This document shows positions 8,556 through 28,829 of a DNA stretch of 64,000 nt, one piece after another. Under the pieces are notes generated by a model. The model had not been told where the DNA came from. It searched no databases and was given only the letters and a program-made list of their open reading frames with translations. Source of the stretch: Herbidospora cretacea (lineage in GTDB: Bacteria > Actinomycetota > Actinomycetes > Streptosporangiales > Streptosporangiaceae). The translations under genes and the position numbers were made by a program. The DNA lies in assembly GCF_001570605.1 (NCBI RefSeq), contig NZ_BBXG01000001.1:434001-498000 (forward strand), read 5' to 3'. Numbering within the stretch: position 1 is the stretch's first letter; each line of letters opens with the position of its first letter.

Positions 8556-9479
8556 ATGGACACCGCCGACGTTTACCGGACCTTCGGCGTCCGCGAGGCC
8601 CGGGGCCCCTACCGGGAGCTCGCCGCCGCCATCGCCGACGACCCCGGCCTGATCGCGCTCATCGGCGCGCTGCCGGAGGCCAAGCGCCAGCCCAACCTCG
8701 TCCTGGCGGCGGTCCGCTTCGAGGGCGGTCCCGCCACCGAGGACGACGGCTTCCGGCCCTGGGCGAAGGAGAACTGGGCGGCGGTCGAGCGGACCGTCCT
8801 GGCCCGGCGCACCCAGACCAACGAGGCCGGCCGCTGCGCCAGCCTGCTGCCGGTTCTCGCCCAGATCGAGGGCCCGCTGGCCCTGATCGAGGCGGGCGCC
8901 TCGGCGGGCCTCTGCCTCCAGCCCGACCGCTATCGGTACGTCTACGACGCCCGCGAGCCGTTCGGCCCCGGCCCGGTGACCCTGGCCTGCGCGACAGAGG
9001 GCGACCCGCCGATCCCGGACGCGGTCCCCGAGATCGCCTGGCGGGCCGGGATCGACCTGGCCCCCGTCGACGTCACCGACCCCGCCGAGCGCCGCTGGCT
9101 CGAATGCCTCGTCTGGCCCGGCGAGGACGCCCGCCGCGACCGCCTCCGGGCCGCCCTCGCCGTCGCCGCGGCCGATCCGCCGCGCCTGGTCCGGGGCGAC
9201 GTCGCCGAGACCCTGCCCGGCCTGGTCGAGGAGGCGGCCGGGCACGGCACGGTCGTCGTCTGCCACTCGGCGCTGCTGCCGTACCTGACGCCCGGGGCCC
9301 GGGACCGCTTCGTGGACCTGGTGACCGGCCTCGGCGTGCGGTGGATCTCCAACGAGGGCACCCCGCGCCTGCCGCACTTCGGCATCCCGGCGGGCGACCG
9401 GCTGGCCTTCGTCACCGCCCTGGACGGCGTGCCGAAGGCCCTCACCGATCCCCACGGCTCGTGGCTGCGCTGGCTCTAG
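8556..9479 (+). CDS. DUF2332 family protein
   Basis: A 307-residue protein matching the actinobacterial DUF2332 family. Recognisable parts are the LIEAGASAGLCLQPDRYRY stretch, reminiscent of a SAM-binding glycine loop, the ARRTQTNEAGRCASLLPVLAQI helix and the C-terminal RWISNEGTPRLP segment. The family has no established activity; a Rossmann-like methyltransferase fold is often inferred. Its stop overlaps the stop of the convergent DUF421 gene inside a shared CTAG. Confidence 0.85.
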   Translation: MDTADVYRTFGVREARGPYRELAAAIADDPGLIALIGALPEAKRQPNLVLAAVRFEGGPATEDDGFRPWAKENWAAVERTVLARRTQTNEAGRCASLLPVLAQIEGPLALIEAGASAGLCLQPDRYRYVYDAREPFGPGPVTLACATEGDPPIPDAVPEIAWRAGIDLAPVDVTDPAERRWLECLVWPGEDARRDRLRAALAVAAADPPRLVRGDVAETLPGLVEEAAGHGTVVVCHSALLPYLTPGARDRFVDLVTGLGVRWISNEGTPRLPHFGIPAGDRLAFVTALDGVPKALTDPHGSWLRWL

Positions 9480-10051
9480 GGTCCGAACGCGCCCTTGCGC
9501 CGGTCCATCAGCAGCGCCTCGATGCGGACCAGCCGCTCCTCCAGCCGGGCGATGTCGGCCAGGGTGGCGTTCTCCTCCTCGGGCCGGAGCCGGACCACCA
9601 CGGTCCCGCCCGGTTCGAGGGTCGCCTCCGACACGTCCTCCACCCGCGTGCCGCCCTGCCGTTTGATCGCCACGTCGAGGTCGGCGTGGCGCAGCCCGAG
9701 GCGTTTGAGGTTGTGGTCGTCGTAGGCGCCGTCACGGGCCAGGACGGTCGGCCTGCTCTCGAACAGCCTGGCCAGCCAGCCCCACTCGGCGGCGGCCCGG
9801 GTGAGCATCGCGTTGGCCGTGACCAGGACGACCGCGCCGATGACGCCGCCGACCAGCGAGTTGTCGGGGCCGATGATGGCGTTCTGCACGACGTTCGACA
9901 GCAGCAGCATGACCACCAGGTCGAACGTGTTGAGCTGGGCCATGTCCCGTTTGCCGACCAGCCGGAGCAGGACCACCACGCAGAGGTAGACGGCCACGGT
10001 CCTGAACACTTTGTCCAGGACCGGCACGCCGAGGGCGAGGATGTCGTTCAT
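9476..10051 (-). CDS. DUF421/YetF-family membrane protein
   Basis: A 191-residue protein from the ATG at 10051. Three N-terminal membrane helices (about 15-95) contain the family signature GKRDMAQLNTFDLVVMLLLSN. They are followed by the soluble YetF-like domain (RPTVLARDGAYDDHNLKRLGLRHADL) and a C-terminal coiled helix. DUF421 proteins sit in the cytoplasmic membrane and have no firmly known role. The start overlaps the stop of the upstream reductase gene by 4 bp (ATGA), so the pair is translationally coupled. Confidence 0.88.
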   Translation of the reverse strand: MNDILALGVPVLDKVFRTVAVYLCVVVLLRLVGKRDMAQLNTFDLVVMLLLSNVVQNAIIGPDNSLVGGVIGAVVLVTANAMLTRAAAEWGWLARLFESRPTVLARDGAYDDHNLKRLGLRHADLDVAIKRQGGTRVEDVSEATLEPGGTVVVRLRPEEENATLADIARLEERLVRIEALLMDRRKGAFGP

Positions 10052-10668
10052 GCGACACGGTAGCGCAGCCACACCAGGCCCTTGCCGAAGGTGTCGCTGT
10101 CGATGAGCTGCAGCGTCCGCGACGGCGGCGGGCCCTCGCCCCACCAGGGGCGGCTCCCGACGCCCATCACCGGGTGGATCAGCAGGCTGACCTCGTCGAC
10201 CAGGCCGTCGGCCAGCAGCCGCCCGACCAGCCGCCCGCCGCTCACCACCCGGACCACCTTGACGCCCGGACGCCGCCCGATCGCCCGCAGCGCCGCCCGC
10301 AGGTCGACCTGGCCGGCGCCGACGACGAGTTCGGGGACGTAGCGGCCGACGGGGCGCGGCGGGGTGGTCCGGCAGTGCAGCGCGAGCACCTCGGACCAGT
10401 GGCCGGCGTCGCGGAGCTGCTGCCAGCGGGTGACCCGGGCGCGGCCGTCGACCACGGCCAGCAGCGGGCCGGGGTCCTTCGTGCCGGGACCGACGACGAG
10501 GGCCGGGTCGAGGGACATGACGGTGTCGGAACCGGCCAGCGTGACGTCCTCGTGCCAGGTCGTGCCGACCAACTGATGGAAGCGGGCGGCGTCGAGGGCG
10601 AACCCGTCGGTGTTCCCGTCGAGCGAAACGCCCAGGTGGGCGACCACGTAGGGCGTGTCGGTCGGCAT
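10048..10668 (-). CDS. RibD C-terminal / dihydrofolate reductase-like NADPH reductase
   Basis: A 206-residue protein with the dihydrofolate-reductase fold of the RibD_C family: PYVVAHLGVSLDGNTDGF at the start, the nucleotide-binding VKVVRVVSGGRLVGRLLADGLVDEVSLLIHPV in the middle, and GKGLVWLRYRV at the end. Such proteins reduce pyrimidine- or pterin-like substrates with NADPH. A role in riboflavin synthesis is not supported because no rib genes are nearby. I chose the ATG at 10668 because upstream sequence in frame reads through the divergent GNAT promoter. Confidence 0.83.
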   Translation of the reverse strand: MPTDTPYVVAHLGVSLDGNTDGFALDAARFHQLVGTTWHEDVTLAGSDTVMSLDPALVVGPGTKDPGPLLAVVDGRARVTRWQQLRDAGHWSEVLALHCRTTPPRPVGRYVPELVVGAGQVDLRAALRAIGRRPGVKVVRVVSGGRLVGRLLADGLVDEVSLLIHPVMGVGSRPWWGEGPPPSRTLQLIDSDTFGKGLVWLRYRVA

Positions 10669-10732
10669 GTCACCGAGCGTAGTCGAGCCTAAACGGGTTG
10701 CCGGGGTCGGCGCGCGTGGTGAGACTGGCGCG

Positions 10733-11227
10733 ATGCTGATCAGACGTGAGGCCCCGGGCGACGTGGCCGCGATCCGTGACGTCGTGGTGCGGGCCTTCCC
10801 GACCCCCATGGAGGCCGACCTGGTCGAGCAGCTCCGGGCCGACGAGGGCTGGATCCCGGCCCTGTCGATGGTCGCCGAGGTCGACGGTGAGGTGGTCGGC
10901 CACGTGGTCTGCACCCGGGCCGACCTGGACGGCGTGCCCGTTCTGGGGCTCGGGCCGCTGAGCGTGCGGCCCGACCGGCAGCGCCGGGGGGTGGGGCTGG
11001 CGCTGATGCACGCGATGCTCGGGGCCGCCGACGCGCTGGGGGAGCCGCTGGTCGTGCTGCTGGGCAGCCCCGCCTACTACGTCAGGTACGGCTTCCGCCC
11101 CGCCACCGCCCTGGGGATCGTCTCGCCTGATCCGCAGTGGGGCGAGCACTTCCAGGCGCGGCCGCTGACCTCGTACAGAGGGGAGAAGGGGCGGTTCACC
11201 TACGCCGAGCCCTTCAACCGGTTGTGA
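10733..11227 (+). CDS. GNAT family N-acetyltransferase
   Basis: A 164-residue acetyltransferase resembling the YhbS group. Motif A, the acetyl-CoA pyrophosphate loop, is LGPLSVRPDRQRRGVGLALMHAML, and motif B is PAYYVRYGFRPA. Start at ATG 10733 (MLIRREAPGDVAAI), the usual family N-terminus. The acceptor substrate is unknown. The gene is divergent from the RibD-like gene with 64 bp between them, and its 3' end overlaps the convergent FMN-reductase gene by 14 bp. Confidence 0.86.
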   Translation: MLIRREAPGDVAAIRDVVVRAFPTPMEADLVEQLRADEGWIPALSMVAEVDGEVVGHVVCTRADLDGVPVLGLGPLSVRPDRQRRGVGLALMHAMLGAADALGEPLVVLLGSPAYYVRYGFRPATALGIVSPDPQWGEHFQARPLTSYRGEKGRFTYAEPFNRL

Positions 11228-18514: not shown

Positions 18515-18978
18515 AGATCACCCTGACCGTGAACGGGGCCGACTACCCGCTGGAGATCGAACCCCGCCGCGTCCTGGCCGACGTCCTGCGCGACGACTGC
18601 GGCCTCACCGGCACCCACCTGGGCTGCGAACAGGGCGTCTGCGGCGCCTGCACGGTCCTGGTCGACGGCGAGGCGGTCCGGTCGTGCCTGATGCTCGCCG
18701 TCCAGTGCGACGGCCACCCGATCCACACCGTCGAGGGCCTCCGCGGCCGGGACGGCGAACCCCACCCGCTGCAACGGGCCTTCTCCGCCGAGCGGGCCCT
18801 GCAATGCGGCTTCTGCACGCCGGGCTTCTTGATGATGGCCGCGGGCGCGCTGGAGGACGACCCCTCGATCGGCGACCATCCGGAACGCGTGGCCAACCTG
18901 GTCCGCTCGAACCTCTGCCGCTGCACGGGCTACGAACCCATCCAGCGCGCCATCATGCGAGCGGCCCGGGGCGGCTGA
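18511..18978 (+). CDS. Molybdenum hydroxylase [2Fe-2S] small subunit (CoxS type)
   Basis: A 155-residue subunit with two [2Fe-2S] clusters. The N-terminal plant-ferredoxin-type cluster uses Cys39, Cys44, Cys47 and Cys59 (GCEQGVCGACTVL). The C-terminal four-helix domain cluster uses Cys99, Cys102, Cys136 and Cys138 (CGFCTPG and CRCTGYEPI). All eight ligands are present and length is normal. It transfers electrons from the Mo centre to FAD. Its last 26 bp overlap, tail to tail, the end of the thiopeptide operon on the other strand. Confidence 0.93.
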   Translation: MKITLTVNGADYPLEIEPRRVLADVLRDDCGLTGTHLGCEQGVCGACTVLVDGEAVRSCLMLAVQCDGHPIHTVEGLRGRDGEPHPLQRAFSAERALQCGFCTPGFLMMAAGALEDDPSIGDHPERVANLVRSNLCRCTGYEPIQRAIMRAARGG

Positions 18979-20005
18979 AACGGCGCATCGACTCCACCCC
19001 GGAGACGCCGTAGACCTCCTCGACCGCGTTCGCGAGCAGGTGACAGGTGCGGAAGCGGTCGAGCGGGGTCAGGCCGAGCCTCGTCAGGTGCAGGTAGGTG
19101 TAGTTGAGCACCACCCGGTAGCGCAGGAAGTCGGGGCGGCTGAACATCTCGCGGCGGTAGTCGGGGGTGCCGAACATCAGGGTGTGCAGTTCGCCGCGCG
19201 TCTCGGCCGGGGTGTCGTCCATGGCAGGCAGCAGGTGCACCACGCGGCCGGCCCGCGCGCGGTAGGTCTCCACCAGCGCCGCCCACTCGCGGACGAACGG
19301 GCTGTCGCCGTCCCCGTCGAGGGTGTCCACGACCTGCCTGACCCGCTGGGTGAGCAGGGCGCGGCGGGAGTCGTACACCTCGTCGAAGGAGCGCCGGGCG
19401 GCCTCGGGGTCCTTCGACCACATGAGGTAGCCCTCGGCGTGCACCCGGAACGACAGGTAGCTGCGCTCGATCGGGTGGGAGGTGTGCGCGACCGTCAGGA
19501 GCAGGGCCATGGCCAGGTCGGACTTGGCGTCGCGGCCGTCGCGGCAGTGGCCGAGCATCGTGAACAGCAGCGGGGTGCTGTCGCTGTAGAACGACGTGAG
19601 CAGGTCGACGCCCTCGTCGCCGCCCAGGACGTGGCGGCGGTCGTCGAACGGGAACTCGACGATCGAGTTGTCGGCGGGCCACGGGGTGAGCGGGCCGTGC
19701 TCCTGCTCGCGCGCGGCCATGAGGCGGTGCCGGGCCAGGCTCTCGGCCTGGTCCACCACGTACGTCGACGGGTGGTCGCGCAGCCAGCCGCCCACCACCT
19801 TGTCGATGCGGGGGCGCACCACCTCCTCCCACACCCGCCGGTCGGTCTTCACGTTGACGCGCACGTGGGGGCCCTGCCGCCAGTGGCGCACCACGTACGC
19901 CGCATCGACGTGGTCGCGGATGTCGGCCAGCAGGGGCCGGACGGCGTCGAGGAGCAGGGGGTCCTTGTCCGGCTCGTGGTAGAAGACGTGGACGCTGTGC
20001 CACAT
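18953..20005 (-). CDS. Thiopeptide-type SpaB_C protein, probable pyridine synthase ([4+2] cyclase)
   Basis: A 350-residue protein of the SpaB C-terminal / thiopeptide biosynthesis family, starting WHSVHVFYHEPDKDPLLLDAVRPLL with AYVVRHWRQGPHVRVNVK. Thiopeptide clusters need two such proteins. One removes glutamyl groups to make dehydroalanines, and one joins two dehydroalanines into the central six-membered nitrogen ring and releases the leader. This copy is longer and departs from the elimination-domain C-terminal pattern (YLHLTRLGLTPLDRF), so I assign it as the cyclase (TclM/TbtD/LazC role). That split is an inference. It is the last gene of the operon, 5 bp after the preceding one. Confidence 0.72.
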   Translation of the reverse strand: MWHSVHVFYHEPDKDPLLLDAVRPLLADIRDHVDAAYVVRHWRQGPHVRVNVKTDRRVWEEVVRPRIDKVVGGWLRDHPSTYVVDQAESLARHRLMAAREQEHGPLTPWPADNSIVEFPFDDRRHVLGGDEGVDLLTSFYSDSTPLLFTMLGHCRDGRDAKSDLAMALLLTVAHTSHPIERSYLSFRVHAEGYLMWSKDPEAARRSFDEVYDSRRALLTQRVRQVVDTLDGDGDSPFVREWAALVETYRARAGRVVHLLPAMDDTPAETRGELHTLMFGTPDYRREMFSRPDFLRYRVVLNYTYLHLTRLGLTPLDRFRTCHLLANAVEEVYGVSGVESMRRFSRPGPLA

Positions 20006-20010
20006 GAGGG

Positions 20011-20841
20011 TCACCTCCGCAGCGCGGCCAGCGCGCGGGCCGCGAGAGTCGAGACGTGCGATTCCGGGCCGGGGCGCAGGCCGATCCGGTTGTGGAACAG
20101 GTGGGCGCAGCGCAGCAGCACGCGGGCCCGTCGCGCGTCGTCGCCGATGACGGCCAGGTGGGCGTGGGCCGAGCCCGCGTCGCCGGTCGTCGCCGGGAGT
20201 CGCGCGGCCAGGTCGTGGATCGAGGCGGCCCAGGCGCCCAGCAGCCCCGGGCCGTCCTTCAGGCGCCAGAGGCGTTCGGTCTGGGTGACCAGTCCGGGCG
20301 GGAGGTCGCCGGGTTCGGATGGGGGCAGGCGGCGGGCCGCCTCGGCGAGGTCGGGCTGGCAGGCGGCCATCGTCAGGGTGAGCACGGCGAGGCCGACGGC
20401 GGTCCTGCGGTCCATCGCGGGCGCGCCGTGGAGGACGTCGAGCGCGAGGGCGCTGGAGACGCCGAAGTGCCGTTCGGCGGCGGGCATGTCCCCGTAGACG
20501 TTCTCCTCCGGCTCGTACGGGAGGAACACCACGCTGCCCGGCGCGTGCAGGGCCGGGTCGTACCTCTCGCGGCGTTCCCCTTTCGCGAGGACGGCCGCGA
20601 GCCGCCGGTAGGCCGGGGCGTCGACGGCGGGCGACGGGTGGCCGGCGAACCACCGTGCGGCCCGCGCCCTGACCTCGTCGCGGGGCACCCCCTTCAGCCG
20701 CAGCCGCACGTGCGGGCCCGACTCCCAGTAGCGCAGGTAGAAGCAGGCCGTCGCCGACCGGGCCAGCGGGGTGACGACGTCGCGGATCAGGTCGTCGAGG
20801 TCGCCGGTGTGGAACAGGTGGGCGCTCTCCCAGCCCGTCAT
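20011..20841 (-). CDS. Thiopeptide-type SpaB_C protein, probable glutamate-elimination domain of split LanB
   Basis: A 276-residue protein beginning MTGWESAHLFHTGDLDDLIRDVVTPL. It keeps the LanB elimination-domain signature FYLRYWESGPHVRLRLKG and the C-terminal HLFHNRIGLRPGPES (His plus Asn-Arg, then Glu), as in NisB-type elimination domains. It should remove tRNA-derived glutamate from glutamylated Ser of the precursor to give dehydroalanine. Its ATG overlaps the stop of the dehydratase gene (ATGA), as expected for the two halves of one split enzyme. Confidence 0.75.
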   Translation of the reverse strand: MTGWESAHLFHTGDLDDLIRDVVTPLARSATACFYLRYWESGPHVRLRLKGVPRDEVRARAARWFAGHPSPAVDAPAYRRLAAVLAKGERRERYDPALHAPGSVVFLPYEPEENVYGDMPAAERHFGVSSALALDVLHGAPAMDRRTAVGLAVLTLTMAACQPDLAEAARRLPPSEPGDLPPGLVTQTERLWRLKDGPGLLGAWAASIHDLAARLPATTGDAGSAHAHLAVIGDDARRARVLLRCAHLFHNRIGLRPGPESHVSTLAARALAALRR

Positions 20842-23024
20842 GGGGCGCTCACCTGGACGACGTACTCGGTGACGCGCGGGCCCCCCGGGTAGACGGGGGC
20901 GTCCTCGGGGGCGGGCAGGGTCTCCTCGACGACCACCAGGGCGTCGGGGTTCCGGGCCGCGTGCCGCAGGCCGGCCAGCAGGAAGGGGTCGGTGACGTCG
21001 ACGTACATGGGCTTGCGGTGCTTGCCGAGCAGGCCCGTCAGCAGGCCGTCGCGCAGATCGAGGACCCGGGCGAAGAAGCGGCGCGGCAGGCCGTGGTCGC
21101 GCAGCCACGACCCCAGCTCGGCTGGGCCGCCCGGGGGTAGGTCGCCGGCGCGCAGCCGCCAGCACTCGCGGGCCAGCGTGACCACGCCCAGGTCGAGGCG
21201 GGGCAGGTGGTCGATCCGGCCGCGCGGCGGCACCGGGCCGGGACGCAGCACCCAGCCGGGCACCAGCGCGACCGACGGCTCGCCGAAGACCCTGACGAGG
21301 AACTGCAGCCACGGCGGCAGCCAGTGCTGGGCGGTCATGCCGAGGTGCATCGGCCGCACCTTCTCCCCACCGGCCCGCAACGCCAGCCGGGAACCGTCGA
21401 GCCGCACCGTCAGCGCCGAGGGGTGCAGACCTCCACCCGTGGTGTACGGGTAGTCGATCGTCACGTCGGCCGTGGTGGTGCGGAGGTTCAGGCCGCTGCC
21501 GAGCGCCCCCGTGACCTCGGCGATCAGGGTGTCGCGTTGCGGGGCCCGCAGCGCCGCCGCGTCCGGGGCGTGGCCGATCCGGTTCAGCTGGTGGTGGAGC
21601 CGGGACAGCCCCTTGCCGTAACCGGCGGTGACGGTGTTGACGACCAGGCGGCCCTCCGGGAGCGCCTGGGCGTAGACGCAGATCGACCCCGGGGCGCGGA
21701 AGCGGTCGTCGTCGGGGGGCTCGCCGGTCCGCAGGAAACGCTCGCGCAGGTCGGCATGGCCGGGACCGGCCGCGAAGGGGTCGCGGACCAGGTCGCGCAG
21801 CGGGCCCGGCTCGCTGTGGACGGCGCGGTAGAAGCTCATGACGGGGACGTCGGCGGCGGGGCCGTACCGGCGCAGGAAGAAGCCGGCGGCGGCCAGTTTC
21901 AGCGGGAGGTCGCCGTCGAACAGGGCCAGCCCCTTCCGCAGCCGGTTCAGGTCGTCGAGCGCCGGCCGCCACGCCTCCCGGCCGCACCGGCCCGCCTCGC
22001 CCGGGATGACGGCGTTGTGCCAGAACAGGTTCCGCTCGGGGATCTCCGTGGGGGCGAGCAGGTCGCGGATGACCTTCGGGTCCTCCTCGACGCCCAGCTT
22101 GGCCAGCGGGTCGTCGTCGTGTTCCCCGTACGGCGGCACCAGCTCCACCAGCCCGATGTCGGCCAGCGCCCTGACCGGCTCCGCCAGCGCCGCCCTCACC
22201 GGCTCGGTCGCGGGCACGCTGAGCAGCGGTTCCGTCGCGGTCGGGCCGAGGAACCAGATGCGGCCGTCCTCCTCGAACGCGGTCGGGTTCACCCGCGTCC
22301 GCGCCGCTTTCACCTGCCGCGACAGCGTCACCCAGAGCGGGCGCAGCACCGCGCGGTCGAGGTCGACGACCTCCCGCCACGTCAGGTCGGCCGGCGGGAC
22401 GGCCATCGGGCCGTCGTCGGCCCAGGCGCCGAAGCCGCTCCACGCGAACGTCGCGTAGGGGCTGGTCTTCATCGTGGCGCGAGCCAGGTAGCGGGCCAGT
22501 TTGACCGCCTCCTGGCGTGACGGGGACGTGCGCGCGGCCAGGATCGGGCTGCCCAGCTCCAGCCCCCGGCGGAAGGCCGGGTCCGCGGCCAGCTCGCGCA
22601 GCAGCCCGGCCTTCTCCCGCCGTTCGGCCTCGTGGACGGCGGGCAGCTCGGCCGCCAGCCTGTCGTGGCGGTCCTTGAGGGCGGTCCAGGCCAGGACCCG
22701 TGCCCGCAGCTCCTCCGGGAGGGCGGCGAGCACCTCCGGCGCGGTCGCCCGGCGGTCGGGGCGGCGGCCCCGGAACAGGTCGCGGCGCAGCGCCACCAGT
22801 TCCGGCTTGAACACACCCGCGCCGATCACCTCGTGCAGCGGGCCGGACATCGCCCGGCCCTCGTCGGCCAGCGTGCGGGCGACGTCGAGCAGCTCGTCGA
22901 CGCGTTCCCACGTCCGCTCGCACCGCAACCGCCGCAACCCGTCGGCGGGCAGCCCCGCCACCCGGATGGCGAAGATCGGCGCCACGACGTAATCTCGGTC
23001 GGCGGGATGAGCTGTTCGTGACAC
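20838..23024 (-). CDS. Lantibiotic-type dehydratase, glutamylation domain (split LanB)
   Basis: A 728-residue protein equal to the N-terminal Lant_dehydr_N part of LanB enzymes and lacking their C-terminal elimination domain, which is encoded separately by the next gene. It uses glutamyl-tRNA to esterify Ser residues of the core peptide. Supporting segments are RDYVVAPIFAIRVAGLP, the SRQEAVKLARYLARATMKTSPYATFAWSGFG region and KLAAAGFFLRRYG. It starts with GTG preceded by GGGAAGGAG at 5-nt spacing. The gene follows the precursor, with a 12-bp stem hairpin in the gap. Confidence 0.9.
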   Translation of the reverse strand: MSRTAHPADRDYVVAPIFAIRVAGLPADGLRRLRCERTWERVDELLDVARTLADEGRAMSGPLHEVIGAGVFKPELVALRRDLFRGRRPDRRATAPEVLAALPEELRARVLAWTALKDRHDRLAAELPAVHEAERREKAGLLRELAADPAFRRGLELGSPILAARTSPSRQEAVKLARYLARATMKTSPYATFAWSGFGAWADDGPMAVPPADLTWREVVDLDRAVLRPLWVTLSRQVKAARTRVNPTAFEEDGRIWFLGPTATEPLLSVPATEPVRAALAEPVRALADIGLVELVPPYGEHDDDPLAKLGVEEDPKVIRDLLAPTEIPERNLFWHNAVIPGEAGRCGREAWRPALDDLNRLRKGLALFDGDLPLKLAAAGFFLRRYGPAADVPVMSFYRAVHSEPGPLRDLVRDPFAAGPGHADLRERFLRTGEPPDDDRFRAPGSICVYAQALPEGRLVVNTVTAGYGKGLSRLHHQLNRIGHAPDAAALRAPQRDTLIAEVTGALGSGLNLRTTTADVTIDYPYTTGGGLHPSALTVRLDGSRLALRAGGEKVRPMHLGMTAQHWLPPWLQFLVRVFGEPSVALVPGWVLRPGPVPPRGRIDHLPRLDLGVVTLARECWRLRAGDLPPGGPAELGSWLRDHGLPRRFFARVLDLRDGLLTGLLGKHRKPMYVDVTDPFLLAGLRHAARNPDALVVVEETLPAPEDAPVYPGGPRVTEYVVQVSAP

Positions 23025-23042
23025 GGATGCTCCTTCCCGTGA

Positions 23043-23073
23043 CCGAGGGCGCCCGTGCCGTGGGCGCCCTCGG
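23043..23073 (-). terminator. 12-bp perfect hairpin between precursor and dehydratase genes
   Basis: ccgagggcgccc (23043-23054) and gggcgccctcgg (23062-23073) pair perfectly around a 7-nt loop, about 20 nt after the precursor stop. There is no T run, so it is probably an attenuator or 3'-end stabiliser that leaves the precursor message more abundant than the downstream enzymes, as in many RiPP operons. Confidence 0.65.
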
Positions 23074-23091
23074 CGTTTCAGCGGTGACCTG

Positions 23092-23265
23092 CTACGCCTC
23101 CGGCGCCCAGCAGCTGTTCGCCTGCATGTACGACGAGCAGTAGCCCATCGCCGACGACGCGCCGGTCTCGACGGCGCCGTGGCCCTCCATCACGATCGAG
23201 TCGGCCGACAGGACGTCGATCGCCTCGACCTCCAGGCCGGACAGGTCAAGGGGGAGCTTCTCCAT
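23092..23265 (-). CDS. Thiopeptide precursor peptide (lactazole-like)
   Basis: A 57-residue peptide from the ATG at 23265, chosen because GAAGGAGAA lies 5-6 nt upstream. The leader (1-36) is acidic and patterned LDLSGLEVEAIDVLS, typical of thiopeptide and azole RiPPs, and ends ETGA, like the NGA end I recall for LazA. The predicted 21-residue core starts at Ser37-Ser38 and ends WAPEA. It contains Cys43 and Cys52 for thiazoles and Ser37, 38, 44, 45 and 51 for dehydroalanine or oxazole. Ser51-Cys52 is the classic Ser-Cys pair at the pyridine, so the ring is expected between Ser37 (or Ser38) and Ser51. Unusually, only two Cys are present. Tyr42, Tyr46, Met40, Met47 and Gln48 would stay unmodified. 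Confidence 0.82.
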   Translation of the reverse strand: MEKLPLDLSGLEVEAIDVLSADSIVMEGHGAVETGASSAMGYCSSYMQANSCWAPEA

Positions 23266-23286
23266 GACGTTTCTCCTTCTCACTGA

Positions 23287-24702
23287 TCAGTACGTTCCGG
23301 ACGTGCCCCGCGGACCTCCTTCCTGCCGATCGGGGAACCGGAGGACCAGGTCTGGCCCCCGGGACCTGGGCACCCCGACGAGCAGGGACGACAGACTCCG
23401 CGCCGGGCCCGTCAGGCCCAGGACGCGGTCGGTCGCCGCACCGGCGGCGTCGGAGTGGATGCGCGAGGTGAGCCCCAGCGCGGCGGCGGCCAGCGTCGCC
23501 CGCTGCAACGCCGCGCCCGTCTCGACGAGCTGGTCACGGTGGTCGCGGGCGGTGCCCGCCAGCGGATCGCCCACAAGGACGATCACCGCGGCGGCGGTCT
23601 TGAGCGCCTCCCGGGTGTTGGCGACGAGCGGGGCCGACCCGAGGGAAGCCAGCGGTGCGGCATCCACCCGTCGGAGCTCGCCGTCGTAGCGGTAGGCGGC
23701 TCTCGGGAGCCCGTCGACCCGCAGGGCCAGCAGGTGGAGGTCCGGTCCGGCAGCCGTCTCCGCCATCGCGACGATCGCCGCCAGCGGGACGGGCACCGGG
23801 CGGAAGCCGTCGACCGGGGAATGGCGGATGGGAAGTCCTTCGCGGAGATCCACCATGCCGGCCGGGACCCGGACATGTCCCGGTGGGCGCAGACGTCTCG
23901 TCCGCGAGTCGGCCTCTGCGGCTCGGTGCAGGTCCCAGGCCGCACCCGGAGGAAACGGCAGAGGAAGAGGCCGGGCCTCCTGCGGCAGGTCGCCGGCGGG
24001 CTGTGGCGCAAGGGCCCGCTCGTGCGGCGGCGCGTGCCGGGCGGTCGGTGTGGCCTTGCGGGTTTCGCCGAGTTCAGAGGTGTGCTCGGGTTGTCGCGCT
24101 GGTTGGAGGGTCGGTGTCGTTGGGCGGTTTCGGTCCAGGCCGAGCCCCCGCACGTGCAGCACGGTCAGGAGGGCTTCGCGGGATTCGTCCAGGCCTAGGA
24201 GGGTGTCGTCGGGGTCGGCGGGGGTGACGGTCAGGTCCAGGGTGGCGGCGACCACCTCCGCCTGGGTGCGCAGGACGCCGATCTCCTGGCAGATCAGGCG
24301 GTAGGCGTAGTCGCCGTACTTGAACATGGAGCGCCAGAAGACCGCCGTCAGGCAGATGCGCGCCGGGCCGTGGTCGCCCGTGCGCAGCACCTCCAGGACC
24401 TCGTGCACCGGGTCGTAGTGGAACAGCCCCTCCGGGGAGGCGACATAGGCCTCGATCGGGTACAGGCCGCCCCCCGAGGGCGCCGGGCGGCCCGGGATCG
24501 CCATCGGGCCCGTGTCGGTGTGCCGCCAGATCACGCGGGTGATGCCGAGCATGCCGCGCAGCAGCGCGCCCAGCGGGTGGGGCGGTTCGGCCCAGGCGGC
24601 CGAGGGGTGGCGTTTGTGCCGGAGCGGCGCGAGGTCCCACCGGGCGTCGAGCGGTCCGCGATCCGCCATCGCCGCCATGTAACGCGCCGCCGGGCCCCTC
24701 AT
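23287..24702 (-). CDS. Tandem SagB/nitroreductase-like azoline dehydrogenase
   Basis: A 471-residue protein with two nitroreductase-fold halves (about 20-195 and 255-460). The first has RPAPSGGGLYPIEAYVA, the FMN/peptide-binding signature of SagB-type oxidases, and FWRSMFKYGDYAYRLICQEIGVL. The second is more diverged (LVANTREALKTAAAVIVLVGD; LVETGAALQRATLAAAALGL). It should oxidise azolines made by the cyclodehydratase to azoles with FMN. Its ATG overlaps the stop of the YcaO gene, and the precursor start lies 22 bp downstream. Confidence 0.83.
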   Translation of the reverse strand: MRGPAARYMAAMADRGPLDARWDLAPLRHKRHPSAAWAEPPHPLGALLRGMLGITRVIWRHTDTGPMAIPGRPAPSGGGLYPIEAYVASPEGLFHYDPVHEVLEVLRTGDHGPARICLTAVFWRSMFKYGDYAYRLICQEIGVLRTQAEVVAATLDLTVTPADPDDTLLGLDESREALLTVLHVRGLGLDRNRPTTPTLQPARQPEHTSELGETRKATPTARHAPPHERALAPQPAGDLPQEARPLPLPFPPGAAWDLHRAAEADSRTRRLRPPGHVRVPAGMVDLREGLPIRHSPVDGFRPVPVPLAAIVAMAETAAGPDLHLLALRVDGLPRAAYRYDGELRRVDAAPLASLGSAPLVANTREALKTAAAVIVLVGDPLAGTARDHRDQLVETGAALQRATLAAAALGLTSRIHSDAAGAATDRVLGLTGPARSLSSLLVGVPRSRGPDLVLRFPDRQEGGPRGTSGTY

Positions 24703-26510
24703 GGGAACGGGTGGGGGTAGGGGCTGAGGTCGTCCGCCGCGAGGTCGCGGTGGAGGTAGCCGAGCGCGCGGCCCCGGGTCAGCAGGCGGGGGAGCCCGTG
24801 CACCCTCCGGTGGTGGTGGCCGAACGTCATCGGCGCCGCCCCCGGCACGATCACCTTGGCGCAGGCGAAGCCGCCCGCCGCCGCCTCGGGCGAGGTGGTG
24901 TCGACGGCGATCACGTCCATGCCGCTGGCCAGGAACCGGGCCACCAGGTCACGCAGGTCGTCGGCCAGGTCGTCGTGGGCGGGCCACTCCGGCAACTCGC
25001 CGACCGTCAGCTCCGCGCCGTTCGGCAGGAACTCCAGCCGCTCGTACGCCTTGGGGTGCCCGTACACCAACGGGTGGTGCTCCAGCAGGCGCACCTCACC
25101 GGAGTCGGCCACCAGCCGGGCCGCCTCGCCCTCGTCGTAGCGGGCGACGTGGTTGGCCAGCATCGGGCCCATTTCGTCGAGGGCGCGGCGCAGGGCCCGT
25201 TCGGGGTCGAGGTGGGCGGCCCCGCCGCACATCGCCTTCGGCCGGTCCGACCGGCCCGACCGGTCGACGGCGGTGATCCAGAAGACCGGCAGTCCCTGTT
25301 CGAGGGTGACCACGTGGGCGTGGACGTCGTAGCCCAGCCGGTCGCCGATCCGCTCGGCGGCCATCGGGACGCGCCGGTCGCGCGCCGACCGCAGGTCGAC
25401 CCGGGGGAGCGGGAGGCGGGCGTACCAGGTGGTCAGGAAGGCGTCCCGTTCGGCGACCTCCAGCAGGCCGTAAAGGATCGCCTCCGCGAGCGATCCGCCG
25501 AGGGCGCAGCCGTTGGAACACTCGTAGGCGAAGCCCCGGTCGGGCCGCGCGCCGAAGTAGACGGACGTCTCCGGCACCAGCACCGGCCCGCCCCGCCGGA
25601 ACGAGTGCCCCCAGACCCAGGCGGTCTCCCGCGCCGGGTCGAACCGGGTGAACCAGAAGCCGGGCCGGTCGTACCAGTCGTCCGGATACAGCCCCAGGAG
25701 GCGCGGGTCGAGCGCCTGGCCGGCGATGTCGTCGTAAGCGGCCCTGACGGTGGTCCGCCGCCCTCGCGGGGAGAACCCGGCCAGCCGTTCGAGCGCCTCG
25801 GCGACGGCGGTCGCCTTCGCGGCGGGCACGTCCTCGCACCGCCCGAACCCGTGGTGGCTCTCGTGGGCGGCTCGCGCGGGGTTCAGCCGCGCCACGGCGA
25901 CCGCGCCGTCCCGCGCGTCGGCCTCCACCGACCGCACGACACCGGTCTCCCGGTCGACGTAGCGGCGTTCGAGCTCGGCGAGATCGAGTGTGCCGACCCG
26001 GAACCCCGACACCTTCGGCTGCGGTGTGAAGACGACGGGCCGCGGCCCGTCGGGCGGCCGGTCGCCGCAGACCGGGCAGAACGGGTCGGGCAGGAAGGGG
26101 TGGCGTGCCAGCGTGCCGGTCAGCACCGGCATCCGCAGCATCGCGCCGCTCGTCAGCGCCGTCGACGGGTCGGCCAGCAGGTGCTCGACCTCGTCGGCCA
26201 CCAGTTCGCCGACCGTGCCGGCCACGAGGGAGGTGAGGAGGGCAGGCCGGTCGCGCAGGCGTACCGAAAAGTGCTCCCGGTTCCCGGCCCGCCGCCGCTC
26301 CACGCAGGTGGGACAGCCCGGCCGCCCGGGAAACGCGGCAGGACCGATCACGACATGTCCGGCTTCGGTGTGCACGGGCAACCACGGGGACCCGTAACGC
26401 CGCCGCCCGATGTCGTCGGCGTCACTGGCGACCACCACGACCCCGCTCGACCGCACCCGCGCCCTGACCGCCTCGAACAGCCGCCCCGACCCCACCACGT
26501 CGGTGATCAC
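24699..26510 (-). CDS. Azoline cyclodehydratase: leader-binding/ThiF-like domain fused to YcaO
   Basis: A 603-residue fusion. Residues 1-190 form the zinc-bearing E1-like leader-recognition part, with CxxC pairs Cys66/Cys69 (GCPTC) and Cys145/Cys148 (CPVC). Residues about 190-603 are the YcaO ATPase, with ECSNGCALGGSLAEAILYGLLEVAERDAFLTTW and the proline-rich C-terminal end PYPHPFP required in azole-forming YcaO enzymes. With ATP it converts core Cys (and possibly Ser) to azolines. It starts with GTG overlapping the upstream stop (GTGA). Confidence 0.92.
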   Translation of the reverse strand: MITDVVGSGRLFEAVRARVRSSGVVVVASDADDIGRRRYGSPWLPVHTEAGHVVIGPAAFPGRPGCPTCVERRRAGNREHFSVRLRDRPALLTSLVAGTVGELVADEVEHLLADPSTALTSGAMLRMPVLTGTLARHPFLPDPFCPVCGDRPPDGPRPVVFTPQPKVSGFRVGTLDLAELERRYVDRETGVVRSVEADARDGAVAVARLNPARAAHESHHGFGRCEDVPAAKATAVAEALERLAGFSPRGRRTTVRAAYDDIAGQALDPRLLGLYPDDWYDRPGFWFTRFDPARETAWVWGHSFRRGGPVLVPETSVYFGARPDRGFAYECSNGCALGGSLAEAILYGLLEVAERDAFLTTWYARLPLPRVDLRSARDRRVPMAAERIGDRLGYDVHAHVVTLEQGLPVFWITAVDRSGRSDRPKAMCGGAAHLDPERALRRALDEMGPMLANHVARYDEGEAARLVADSGEVRLLEHHPLVYGHPKAYERLEFLPNGAELTVGELPEWPAHDDLADDLRDLVARFLASGMDVIAVDTTSPEAAAGGFACAKVIVPGAAPMTFGHHHRRVHGLPRLLTRGRALGYLHRDLAADDLSPYPHPFP

Positions 26511-28387
26511 GACATCACCCGCGCCACGAACGCCGGCCCGTCGACGGGCAGCGAGACGGCGGCCCCGCCGACCGGAAACCCGTCACTCGCCCACCGCACG
26601 GGCGGTGTGAGCCCGGTCTGCGCCCGCAGCAACACCCGCTCCAGCCCGTCGTGCAACCCGAGCGCCACGAGGGGCGGCCGGCCCGCCACCTCGAACCGCA
26701 GCACCGCCGACCCCGGCACCTCCCGCACGACCGGCACCTCCCCGGCCGCCACCACCTGCCGCCAGAGCGGCTCGTCGTCCGGCACGGCCACCTCACCGCC
26801 CGCCGCCGATCCCGCCGCCTCGGCCTCGAGCCGCTGCCGGTGCGCCGCGGATACGGCGTCCTCCCAGGTCAGACCCGCTCCGATGAAACCGTCGCCGACC
26901 GCGAACACCGCCAGCAGACACCGCAACCGCGCCGTGTCGTGATCCGCCCCCCACCCGACGACCTCACGGTCCCCCACGAGCGCCCGCATGACGGAGAGGG
27001 GCCCCTGCGGATAGCCACCTTCGTCCAGTACCGAGATGACCCCCATGCGCGGATCCACCAGATCACGACAGAGCCCGAAAAACCGTTCCCGAACGCCCGC
27101 CTCACCCGAGACCCCGGACCCGCCAACCCCCGCCGCACCGGGGCGCTCCGAGCTCCCCTCGCCAGTACCAAAGCCCTCGCTGCCCGCCGACCTCCGCGAG
27201 GTGGAGACCGGTCCGGACACCTCTGCGTCCCTCCGCGAGGTGAGTGCTGGTCCCGGCATCTCCACGTCCCTTTGCCGACCGGGGGCCGGTTCGGACACCT
27301 CCACATCCCGCCGCGAGGCGGAGGTTGGTCCTGAAACCTCAGCTTCTCTCGGTGATGCGGGGGCGGGGGCTGATGCCGAAACCCCCACGTCTTTCCGCGA
27401 GGCGGGGATCGGTTGGGATGCCTGTGCGTCCTTCCGCGAAATGGGGGCCGGTTCCGCCACCTGCGCATCCCTTCGCGAGGCAGGGACCGGTCCGGATATC
27501 TGTGTGTCCCTCTGCGAGGCGGGATCTCGGCTGGACACTTCTGCCGGGTTCCAGCGCAGGCCCGCGAAACGGTGGATCGTGCTGTCCAGGGTGCGCAGAT
27601 CAACGCGGGTGAACGCCCGTCGCGCCGCCACGAGCCCTGTCACCGCCGCGAAGACCCCCAAGGCCACCTGGGACGCCACCACGCGGGGGACCGCGCCGCG
27701 CAACCAGTCGCCTCGTGTTCCCTCGCGGAGGGACAACCGCTTCCACCCGGTGGCCGCGTCGGTCTCGCCGGGCGGTCCCGCTGAGGTCAGCCAGGCCTCG
27801 TCGTCACGGATCAGCACCTGCGCCAGCACCACGTCGGCGGGGCAGGCGAGCGCCTCGGCCAGCAGTTCGTCCCGGGAGGTGCTGACCTGCACCAGGACGT
27901 CCTCGCCCGAGGTCACCACCTCGCGCCAGCCCACCGACCGGAGACACTCGACCAGCGCCGGGACCAGCGCCGGGACCAGCACCCCGGTGCCCGTCACGCG
28001 CAGGGCCGAGTTCCGCACCCGGGCGAACCGGCCCGGATGGCCGGCGAACGCGATCTCGGCCGCGTAGGTCTCCAGGTCCTCGGCGGACAGCCCGTGATCG
28101 GCGGCCCCGGTGTCGTCGACGACGAAGCGCAGTTCGGCCAGGCGTCCGACGAGGCCGGTGACCAGCTCGCGCTGGGTCGCGGGCAGGCCCGAGGTCAGTT
28201 CGCCCAGGGTCTGGGCTCCGTCGAGGCGTGGCGCCAGCCGTTCGAGCAGGGCCAGCGCGTGGGGTCCGCGCAGTGTCGCCGCCCCGTGATCCCCGTGAAC
28301 GTGAACCCCACCGGGGCACTCGACCCACCGCACGTCAGCGCGTAATCGGGGCCGAATCATCTCCATATTGAGTGGGAGCGCTCCCAT
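26507..28387 (-). CDS. Ocin_ThiF-like RiPP maturation protein with internal 13-residue repeats
   Basis: A 626-residue protein like the thiazole-bacteriocin maturation proteins (LazD role): the N-terminal ~290 residues are leader-binding/ThiF-like, and the C-terminal ~210 (from ERFFGLCRDLVDPRMG) are a degenerate cyclodehydratase partner domain. Between them, about residues 290-400 hold roughly eight copies of a 13-residue unit of the form SRRDAEVSGPVSA, probably a flexible linker. It is the first gene of the seven-gene thiopeptide operon. The ATG at 28387 overlaps a CebR-type operator and lies at the predicted transcription start, so translation could be leaderless. ATGs at 28366 and 28360 are alternatives. 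Confidence 0.78.
   Translation of the reverse strand: MGALPLNMEMIRPRLRADVRWVECPGGVHVHGDHGAATLRGPHALALLERLAPRLDGAQTLGELTSGLPATQRELVTGLVGRLAELRFVVDDTGAADHGLSAEDLETYAAEIAFAGHPGRFARVRNSALRVTGTGVLVPALVPALVECLRSVGWREVVTSGEDVLVQVSTSRDELLAEALACPADVVLAQVLIRDDEAWLTSAGPPGETDAATGWKRLSLREGTRGDWLRGAVPRVVASQVALGVFAAVTGLVAARRAFTRVDLRTLDSTIHRFAGLRWNPAEVSSRDPASQRDTQISGPVPASRRDAQVAEPAPISRKDAQASQPIPASRKDVGVSASAPAPASPREAEVSGPTSASRRDVEVSEPAPGRQRDVEMPGPALTSRRDAEVSGPVSTSRRSAGSEGFGTGEGSSERPGAAGVGGSGVSGEAGVRERFFGLCRDLVDPRMGVISVLDEGGYPQGPLSVMRALVGDREVVGWGADHDTARLRCLLAVFAVGDGFIGAGLTWEDAVSAAHRQRLEAEAAGSAAGGEVAVPDDEPLWRQVVAAGEVPVVREVPGSAVLRFEVAGRPPLVALGLHDGLERVLLRAQTGLTPPVRWASDGFPVGGAAVSLPVDGPAFVARVMS
27190..27520. repeat. 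39-bp tandem repeat inside the ThiF-like gene
   Basis: About eight imperfect 39-bp units, read on the plus strand as variants of tccctccgcgaggtg followed by ggtccggacacctctgc. Being a multiple of three, length changes keep the frame. They encode the 13-residue linker repeat and make all frames look repetitive here. Confidence 0.85.
28373..28386. promoter_or_regulatory. CebR-type operator (LacI-family box) at start of thiopeptide operon
   Basis: TGGGAGCGCTCCCA, a perfect 14-bp palindrome. This is the published consensus box of CebR, the Streptomyces LacI-family repressor released by cello-oligosaccharides. It lies directly downstream of the predicted -10 element and overlaps the first codons of the operon, an ideal place for repression. 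No LacI-family gene is present in the window. Confidence 0.8.
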
Positions 28388-28829
28388 ATGCTCAGAATAC
28401 CGCCGACCGAATTACCTCACAAGGCCCTTGTTTCAGTTTATGACAATCTCGCCGACTGCGGGTGATCTGCTCTAACGTCTGACGTGGCCTTTTCCGGCGA
28501 AACGCCACCTCTTCATCCGCCCGAGGAAATGGCCTATCCGAAATTGGCGCGAATAGGAATTGACAAAGCCGGTCCCGCTCGTTACCGCTCCAGCTCTGGA
28601 AACCCATTCACCGCGCGAGCTGCCGAGGCCGCTGATCGCCTATTCGAAGGGCCACCCTGACGTGGGGATCGGATCGCGAACGATGAAGCACGGGTGGATC
28701 CCCGCCACCCAGTCGACGGACAACCGGGCCCGGAGGCGTCGACGAGCGCCATCAGGTCATGACGCCGATTCTCGCGCTTCCCCGGGGGCCGATCGCCACC
28801 GCATCGTGTCGTCCCAGATGATGGGGTTC
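28388..28829. other. 442-bp divergent intergenic region, thiopeptide operon / acetylxylan esterase
   Basis: This stretch is less GC-rich than its surroundings and has no supported gene. It carries the minus-strand promoter described separately. For the plus strand there is a perfect TTGACA (28560-28565) followed, after 17 bp, by a poor TACCGC. A near-palindrome (cctatccg ... cgaatagg, about 28533-28557) is just upstream. The frame of the esterase is open back to 28560, but the encoded extension is low-complexity and basic and probably not translated. Confidence 0.5.
28394..28422 (-). promoter_or_regulatory. Predicted sigma70-type promoter of thiopeptide operon
   Basis: Read on the minus strand: -35 TTGTGA (28417-28422), 17-bp spacer, -10 TATTCT (28394-28399). 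Transcription would begin near the ATG at 28387, so the operator at 28373-28386 would cover the first transcribed bases. Each hexamer matches four of six consensus bases. Confidence 0.5.

Follow-up and report, generated by a model that had tools for sequence, protein, structure and literature searches.

Natural thiopeptide macrocycles span 26 to 35 ring atoms (PMC7210931), and ring size tracks the target: according to PMC3917276, 26-membered rings go with the ribosome and L11 and 29-membered rings with EF-Tu, while the target of the 35-membered ring was given as unknown in 2014. In vitro, the lactazole enzymes make a 62-atom ring (PMC7210931) and the pyritide enzymes a 68-atom ring (PMC9247985). 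The latter paper describes the pyritide B and D enzymes as reading the leader together with a C-terminal tripeptide that starts with Trp, the leader weighing more for Ser1 and the tail for the second Ser. Here we describe a locus that invites comparison with the thiomuracin, GE2270, lactazole and pyritide systems, found in a stretch of 64,000 nucleotides from the soil actinomycete Herbidospora cretacea (contig NZ_BBXG01000001.1; hereafter the window).

Seven genes, in the order F-G-E-A-B-C-D, are tightly packed on the minus strand of the window from 28387 to 18953. F and G, G and E, and B and C overlap by 4 nucleotides, and the gaps are 21 nucleotides between E and A, 67 between A and B, and 5 between C and D. 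We consider it highly probable that these genes make up a self-contained operon for a Cys-poor, large-ring thiopeptide, built by enzymes of the thiomuracin (TbtD/PbtD) type. An earlier note on this DNA had described a complete enzyme set in seven packed genes, which the positions of the open reading frames and the family-model matches bear out; its label of "lactazole-like" had to be given up, as discussed below.

Enzymes of the operon

The apparent pyridine synthase, a [4+2] macrocyclase that would also release the leader, is D (18953..20005, minus strand as for all seven genes; 350 amino acids, with the start placed at the ATG at 20005). It scores 464.2 bits against NF045556, the TbtD/PbtD pyridine-synthase model (cut-off 325), which places it within the TbtD/PbtD equivalog, and it matches the solved structures of TbtD (5wa3, E 2.8e-53) and PbtD (5w98, E 9.3e-41). 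Its neighbor C (20011..20841, 276 amino acids) also matches PF14028 (95.5 bits), but reaches a weak 47.5 bits on NF045556 and passes TIGR03891 (54.3 bits, cut-off 48.45); the same holds for the protein at the C position in L089, the locus whose core is that of thiomuracin. The earlier note had not decided which of its two SpaB_C proteins cyclizes; these scores assign the cyclase to D and leave C as the glutamate-elimination protein, which by family would form dehydroalanine. C and D are the only PF14028 matches in the 8.28-Mb host genome, which leaves no sign of another thiopeptide locus of the kind.

For each enzyme, we took the residues that are invariant among references outside the clade of carriers described below and counted those kept in the window protein. 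D keeps 34 of 35 (14 references), and the missing catalytic residue in the cyclase that the earlier note named as a refutation of its reading is thus not apparent in the invariant columns, the active-site positions not having been mapped. C keeps 38 of 42 (10 references) and G keeps 109 of 112 (7 references).

Azole formation would fall to G and E. G (24699..26510, 603 amino acids, with the C-terminus PHPFP) is a YcaO cyclodehydratase, expected to form azolines, scoring 281.6 bits on PF02624, 326.8 on TIGR03604 (cut-off 219.25) and 102.1 on TIGR03882 (cut-off 36.9). E (23287..24702, 471 amino acids) is a SagB-type flavin oxidase, expected to convert azoline to azole, with 85.8 bits on TIGR03605 (cut-off 78.4). 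The presence of both separates the operon from the pyritide clusters, which have no azole-forming genes. B (20838..23024, 728 amino acids) scores 54.9 bits on PF04738 (cut-off 28) and is 32% identical to the B protein of L089; by family it is a split LanB that would glutamylate Ser in a Glu-tRNA-dependent reaction, and together with C it would make up the split dehydratase (LanB N part plus elimination protein), judging from PF04738, PF14028 and TIGR03891. F (26507..28387, 626 amino acids), a TbtF-type (ocin_ThiF-like) protein, has a sub-threshold 35.4 bits on TIGR03693 (cut-off 561.9), similar to the 35.9 of the F-position protein of L089, and is a probable leader-recognition partner of the cyclodehydratase. 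F also contains an array of imperfect in-frame repeats of 39 base pairs (13 amino acids) at 27191-27523. The F gene of Herbidospora mongoliensis is missing the segment corresponding to 27226-27533, suggesting that the array was recently expanded or lost.

The operon resembles those of thiomuracin (tbt) and GE2270 (pbt) in having separate B, C, D, E, F and G enzymes and a leader with a GHG...GA junction. The differences are considerable, however: the core has two Cys (three in three carriers) in place of six, the predicted ring has 41 or 38 members in place of 29, the order is F-G-E-A-B-C-D rather than the B-C-D-E-F-G of L089, with no further conserved genes, and D is 37% identical to its counterpart in L089 and 33% to that in the locus with the GE2270 core (L102), the figure for G being 43% in both cases.

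With lactazole (laz), the operon shares a minimal gene set, a Cys-poor core, a leader ending in GA, and an expectation of unmodified residues within the ring, and a lactazole-type cluster was the reading first proposed. When 394 genomes of the class were queried with LazA, 13 gave a match at or below E 0.01, the strongest at E 5.5e-20, and we compared five of the LazA-like loci (L186-L190), the matches being weaker in L188 (genome G309, 60% identical) and L189 (G098, 42%). Their cyclases are only 25-27% identical to D and score 124-161 bits on NF045556 against 464 for D, their YcaO proteins are 31-37% identical to G, and so D is not a LazC-like cyclase by comparison with these five loci, LazC itself not being among the sequences compared. 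In L188 and L189, the two of these five loci that were inspected for a fusion, the elimination and SagB domains are in one protein, the LazF arrangement described in PMC7210931, whereas C and E are separate genes in the operon; the 32-membered ring of lactazole also differs. We therefore regard a lactazole-type cluster as extremely improbable.

The precursor family

The precursor gene, A (23092..23265), encodes 57 amino acids, with a leader of residues 1-36 ending in ETGA and a core of residues 37-57, SSAMGYCSSYMQANSCWAPEA. The open reading frame is longer, at 63 codons, but the additional six lie upstream of the ATG that comes after the ribosome-binding site. The composition that the earlier note gave for this core is accurate, with two Cys, two Tyr, two Met and a WAPEA tail all present. 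It was also correct that the leader ends in GA like that of LazA, although this has little diagnostic value, as thiomuracin, GE2270 and pyritide leaders end alike. With the leader end placed by comparison, the core opens with a Ser and has a later one directly ahead of a Cys, as expected of a pyridine-type thiopeptide precursor.

Ten precursor sequences were aligned. The window precursor is 96% identical to that of H. mongoliensis and 68-77% identical to the eight from other genera; the window and H. mongoliensis cores are identical, the two A genes differing in five codons, of which two are nonsynonymous and both of those in the leader. Over the ten rows, 19 of 36 leader columns and 13 of 21 core columns are invariant, the latter being S1, S2, Y6, C7, S8, S9, Y10, A13, S15, C16, W17, P19 and E20.

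A profile built from these ten sequences was used to search 345 genomes of the order and a sample of 394 genomes of the class, at a threshold of E 0.01 per genome. It matches 23 of the 345, 16 of them strongly (E 1.8e-34 or better) and spread over five genera, with core and tail conserved throughout; these 16 are the carriers. Among the seven weak matches, five genomes (G008, G154, G214, G241 and G253) have thiopeptide-type precursors with another core, and a precursor was found in G257. In the class sample three genomes match strongly, each through a member of this family, and three others match weakly. The weak matches in G156 of the order and in G374, G418 and G628 of the class yielded, on translation, no frame resembling a precursor; they were taken as chance, as a few false matches are expected at this threshold over hundreds of genomes. 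A third Cys, ahead of Ser15, is present in three of the 16 carriers (G328, G166 and G186). The core is unusual beside those of described compounds, but it defines a conserved family across five genera rather than a peculiarity of this genome.

The enzymes follow the precursor. The order of all seven genes is unchanged in 14 carriers of the 16 (the window and 13 others), while in the remaining two (G163 and G186) the contig breaks off before F or G is reached; F is accordingly present in 13 of the 15 other carriers, with the other two sitting at a contig start. D is 92-93% identical to the D proteins of named Herbidospora species. In the tree of D, the 16 carriers and two Herbidospora remnants form a clade of 18 rows (100/99), and a larger clade of 26 rows (100/98) adds sisters having one to four Cys where a core was found; L036 and L083 yielded no core. 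TbtD and PbtD fall outside the 26-row clade on long branches. The loci L037-L042, from Catenulispora, Streptacidiphilus and Streptomyces, have a core S(Y/F)CCAPPPNCCNCSCS, for which closure at Ser14 would be predicted to give a 38-membered ring. A sister genome, G008, has three precursors on contig C52 (L122, L128 and L129) with cores beginning SSSTSSFGSC, SSVSSAPSC and SCGGIVNSC, whose predicted rings of 20-23 atoms are smaller than the natural thiopeptide range.

The two Herbidospora remnants are those of H. yilanensis and H. solisilvae (L033 and L035, about 9250-11041). Each has an open D that is still under constraint, with a ratio of nonsynonymous to synonymous substitution (dN/dS) of 0.165 between them, next to a C with differing frame-breaking indels, and neither genome has a match to the precursor profile. 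A second and different TbtD-type cyclase is found in two Herbidospora genomes (L068 in G040:C15 and L069 in G043:C51, 372 and 384 bits); a precursor pattern search at these two loci gave nothing convincing.

Predicted pathway and ring closure

We infer each reaction on the core, the ring-closing Ser, the ring size, the azoles, and the product and its role from the gene content and the core. In the proposed pathway, F would hold the leader while G and E convert Cys7 and Cys16 to thiazoles, and possibly Ser2 to an oxazole. B would then glutamylate Ser residues, and glutamate elimination by C would turn Ser1, Ser15 and a subset of Ser2, Ser8 and Ser9 into dehydroalanines. Finally, D would join dehydroalanines 1 and 15 into a pyridine and free the leader as an amide, leaving a macrocycle that carries the tail thiazole-Trp-Ala-Pro-Glu-Ala.

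A ring closed between Ser1 and Ser10 has 26 atoms, and each further residue adds three. Applied to the TbtA and PbtA cores the rule gives 29, and for the pyritides it gives 14 and 17, agreeing with the sizes reported in PMC9247985. For the window core it predicts a 41-membered macrocycle from Ser1 to Ser15 or a 38-membered one from Ser2 to Ser15, and the statement in the earlier note that the ring would be two to three residues larger than that of lactazole is arithmetically right. The core resembles those of the pyritides (mro) in promising few azoles, in following a leader end like their EVGA before Ser1, and in the Trp of its tail, beyond the second Ser, a residue that their B and D read; it differs in its far larger predicted ring and in the Cys that precedes the Trp. 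By analogy, recognition of the GA leader end probably fixes Ser1 as one closing residue, and recognition of the invariant Cys-Trp-x-Pro-Glu tail probably fixes Ser15 as the other. If the closing Ser residues are set by the leader end and the tail, the intervening ring may be long.

We favor Ser1 and Ser15 on two grounds: the sister clusters always have Ser directly after the leader but differ at position 2, and Ser15 is the sole core Ser preceding a Cys. The most serious alternative is the same pathway with the ring drawn from Ser2 and Ser1 leaving with the leader. Two adjacent Ser are both candidates, and Ser2 is invariant in all ten rows, but position 2 of the sister clusters may be Cys, Ser, Asn or Gln, and the GA|S junction is that of thiomuracin, GE2270 and MroA, the last of which uses Ser1; closure at Ser2 is on balance unlikely, though far from negligible. 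A smaller ring of 20 or 23 members, from Ser1 to Ser8 or Ser9 and with a long tail, would make use of two invariant Ser that follow Cys7 and would have a parallel in the predicted 20- and 23-membered rings of G008. Against it, Cys16, Trp17, Pro19 and Glu20 after Ser15 are invariant, and among these Ser only Ser15 precedes a Cys as does the second pyridine Ser of the TbtA and PbtA cores, making the smaller ring very improbable. It is also improbable that the operon is decaying or silent and its product no longer made in this strain, as all seven frames are open and comparison with H. mongoliensis shows constraint on each of the five genes for which dN/dS was computed (0.20-0.40 for A, B, C, D and G).

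Several observations weigh against a functional thiopeptide operon of the thiomuracin type. The weakest points are the residue losses in B, which keeps 63 of 75 invariant residues (11 references), and in E, which keeps 96 of 132 (4 references), K128 and Y129 among them; part of these losses are alignment gaps. F belongs to no family above threshold. The precursor scores 18.3 bits on NF033399, the thiomuracin/GE37468 family, below the cut-off of 29, suggesting that its leader is related to that curated family but that the precursor lies outside it. The operon has no transporter, regulator or immunity gene. Among the six other Herbidospora genomes examined, the operon is present in one and D with a decayed C in two, and no cyclase above cut-off was found in three (G038, G039 and G041).

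Going further, we suggest tentatively, at a little short of even chances, that these precursors give rise to a conserved family of natural thiopeptides whose pyridine macrocycle has 41 members, beyond the 26-35 range, and only two thiazoles; the leader end and the Cys-Trp-x-Pro-Glu tail would mark its closing Ser residues, and seven genes would suffice for the entire pathway.

Genomic setting and significance

The genes flanking the operon are direct neighbors in three other Herbidospora genomes. The island (18971..28569) is common to H. mongoliensis and absent from the site in six congeners (G038-G043), where the flanking genes stand together without it. Inserted between genes that are adjacent elsewhere, the operon has moved as a unit. 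The window contains no tRNA that could mark the insertion site, nor were there terminal repeats of 18 nucleotides or more matching the two island ends. Plasmid records matching D number 8 of 72,556, the best being 38% identical over 93%; a Nonomuraea gerenzanensis record of 11.85 Mb in the plasmid set contains a 56-residue D fragment.

We considered the possibility of hidden companion genes. Apart from F, its other frames and frames at the end of D, no open reading frame of at least 90 amino acids downstream is common to three or more loci (10 carriers and the window), and none of at least 120 amino acids upstream is common to two or more (the window plus 8 carriers represented by 20-kb stretches); the idea was rejected. 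An extra EF-Tu serving as self-resistance was likewise rejected, a single EF-Tu being above cut-off.

Between A and B lies a GC-rich hairpin (23037..23067, minus strand) with a 12-base-pair stem and a 7-nucleotide loop, which is found in all 16 carriers, though interrupted in L059. In an alignment of 13 of the 16 (12 distinct sequences), 96.5% of cells pair as against 92.5% in shuffles, and 4 of 12 pairs are changed on both sides as against 1.5 (7 cells as against 1.9), while further pair types, at 7 against 8.0, are not above the shuffles. The hairpin has a z score of -3.17 and no T-run. It is possibly a brake that favors precursor over enzyme transcripts.

The core motifs were absent from the literature text searched, although survey supplements lay outside the search and the core may be listed there. 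Those parts of the literature joining thiopeptides and Herbidospora that were seen concern other topics, and the thiopeptides of Nonomuraea jiangxiensis are GE2270 congeners (PMC9822014). The new product that the earlier note thought likely is still plausible to the extent that a motif search found no printed compound with this core, but a core recurring in 16 of 345 genomes is not the one-off it might have seemed.

What we describe, then, is known chemistry applied to a core family for which we found no description, with a predicted ring outside the described range. As no companion genes were found, the operon offers a compact system for cell-free reconstitution. Its invariant tail provides a test case for pyritide-style two-site recognition in azole-bearing thiopeptides. 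If the prediction is true, the conservation across five genera of a product with a ring of more than 35 members would make one ask what it binds.

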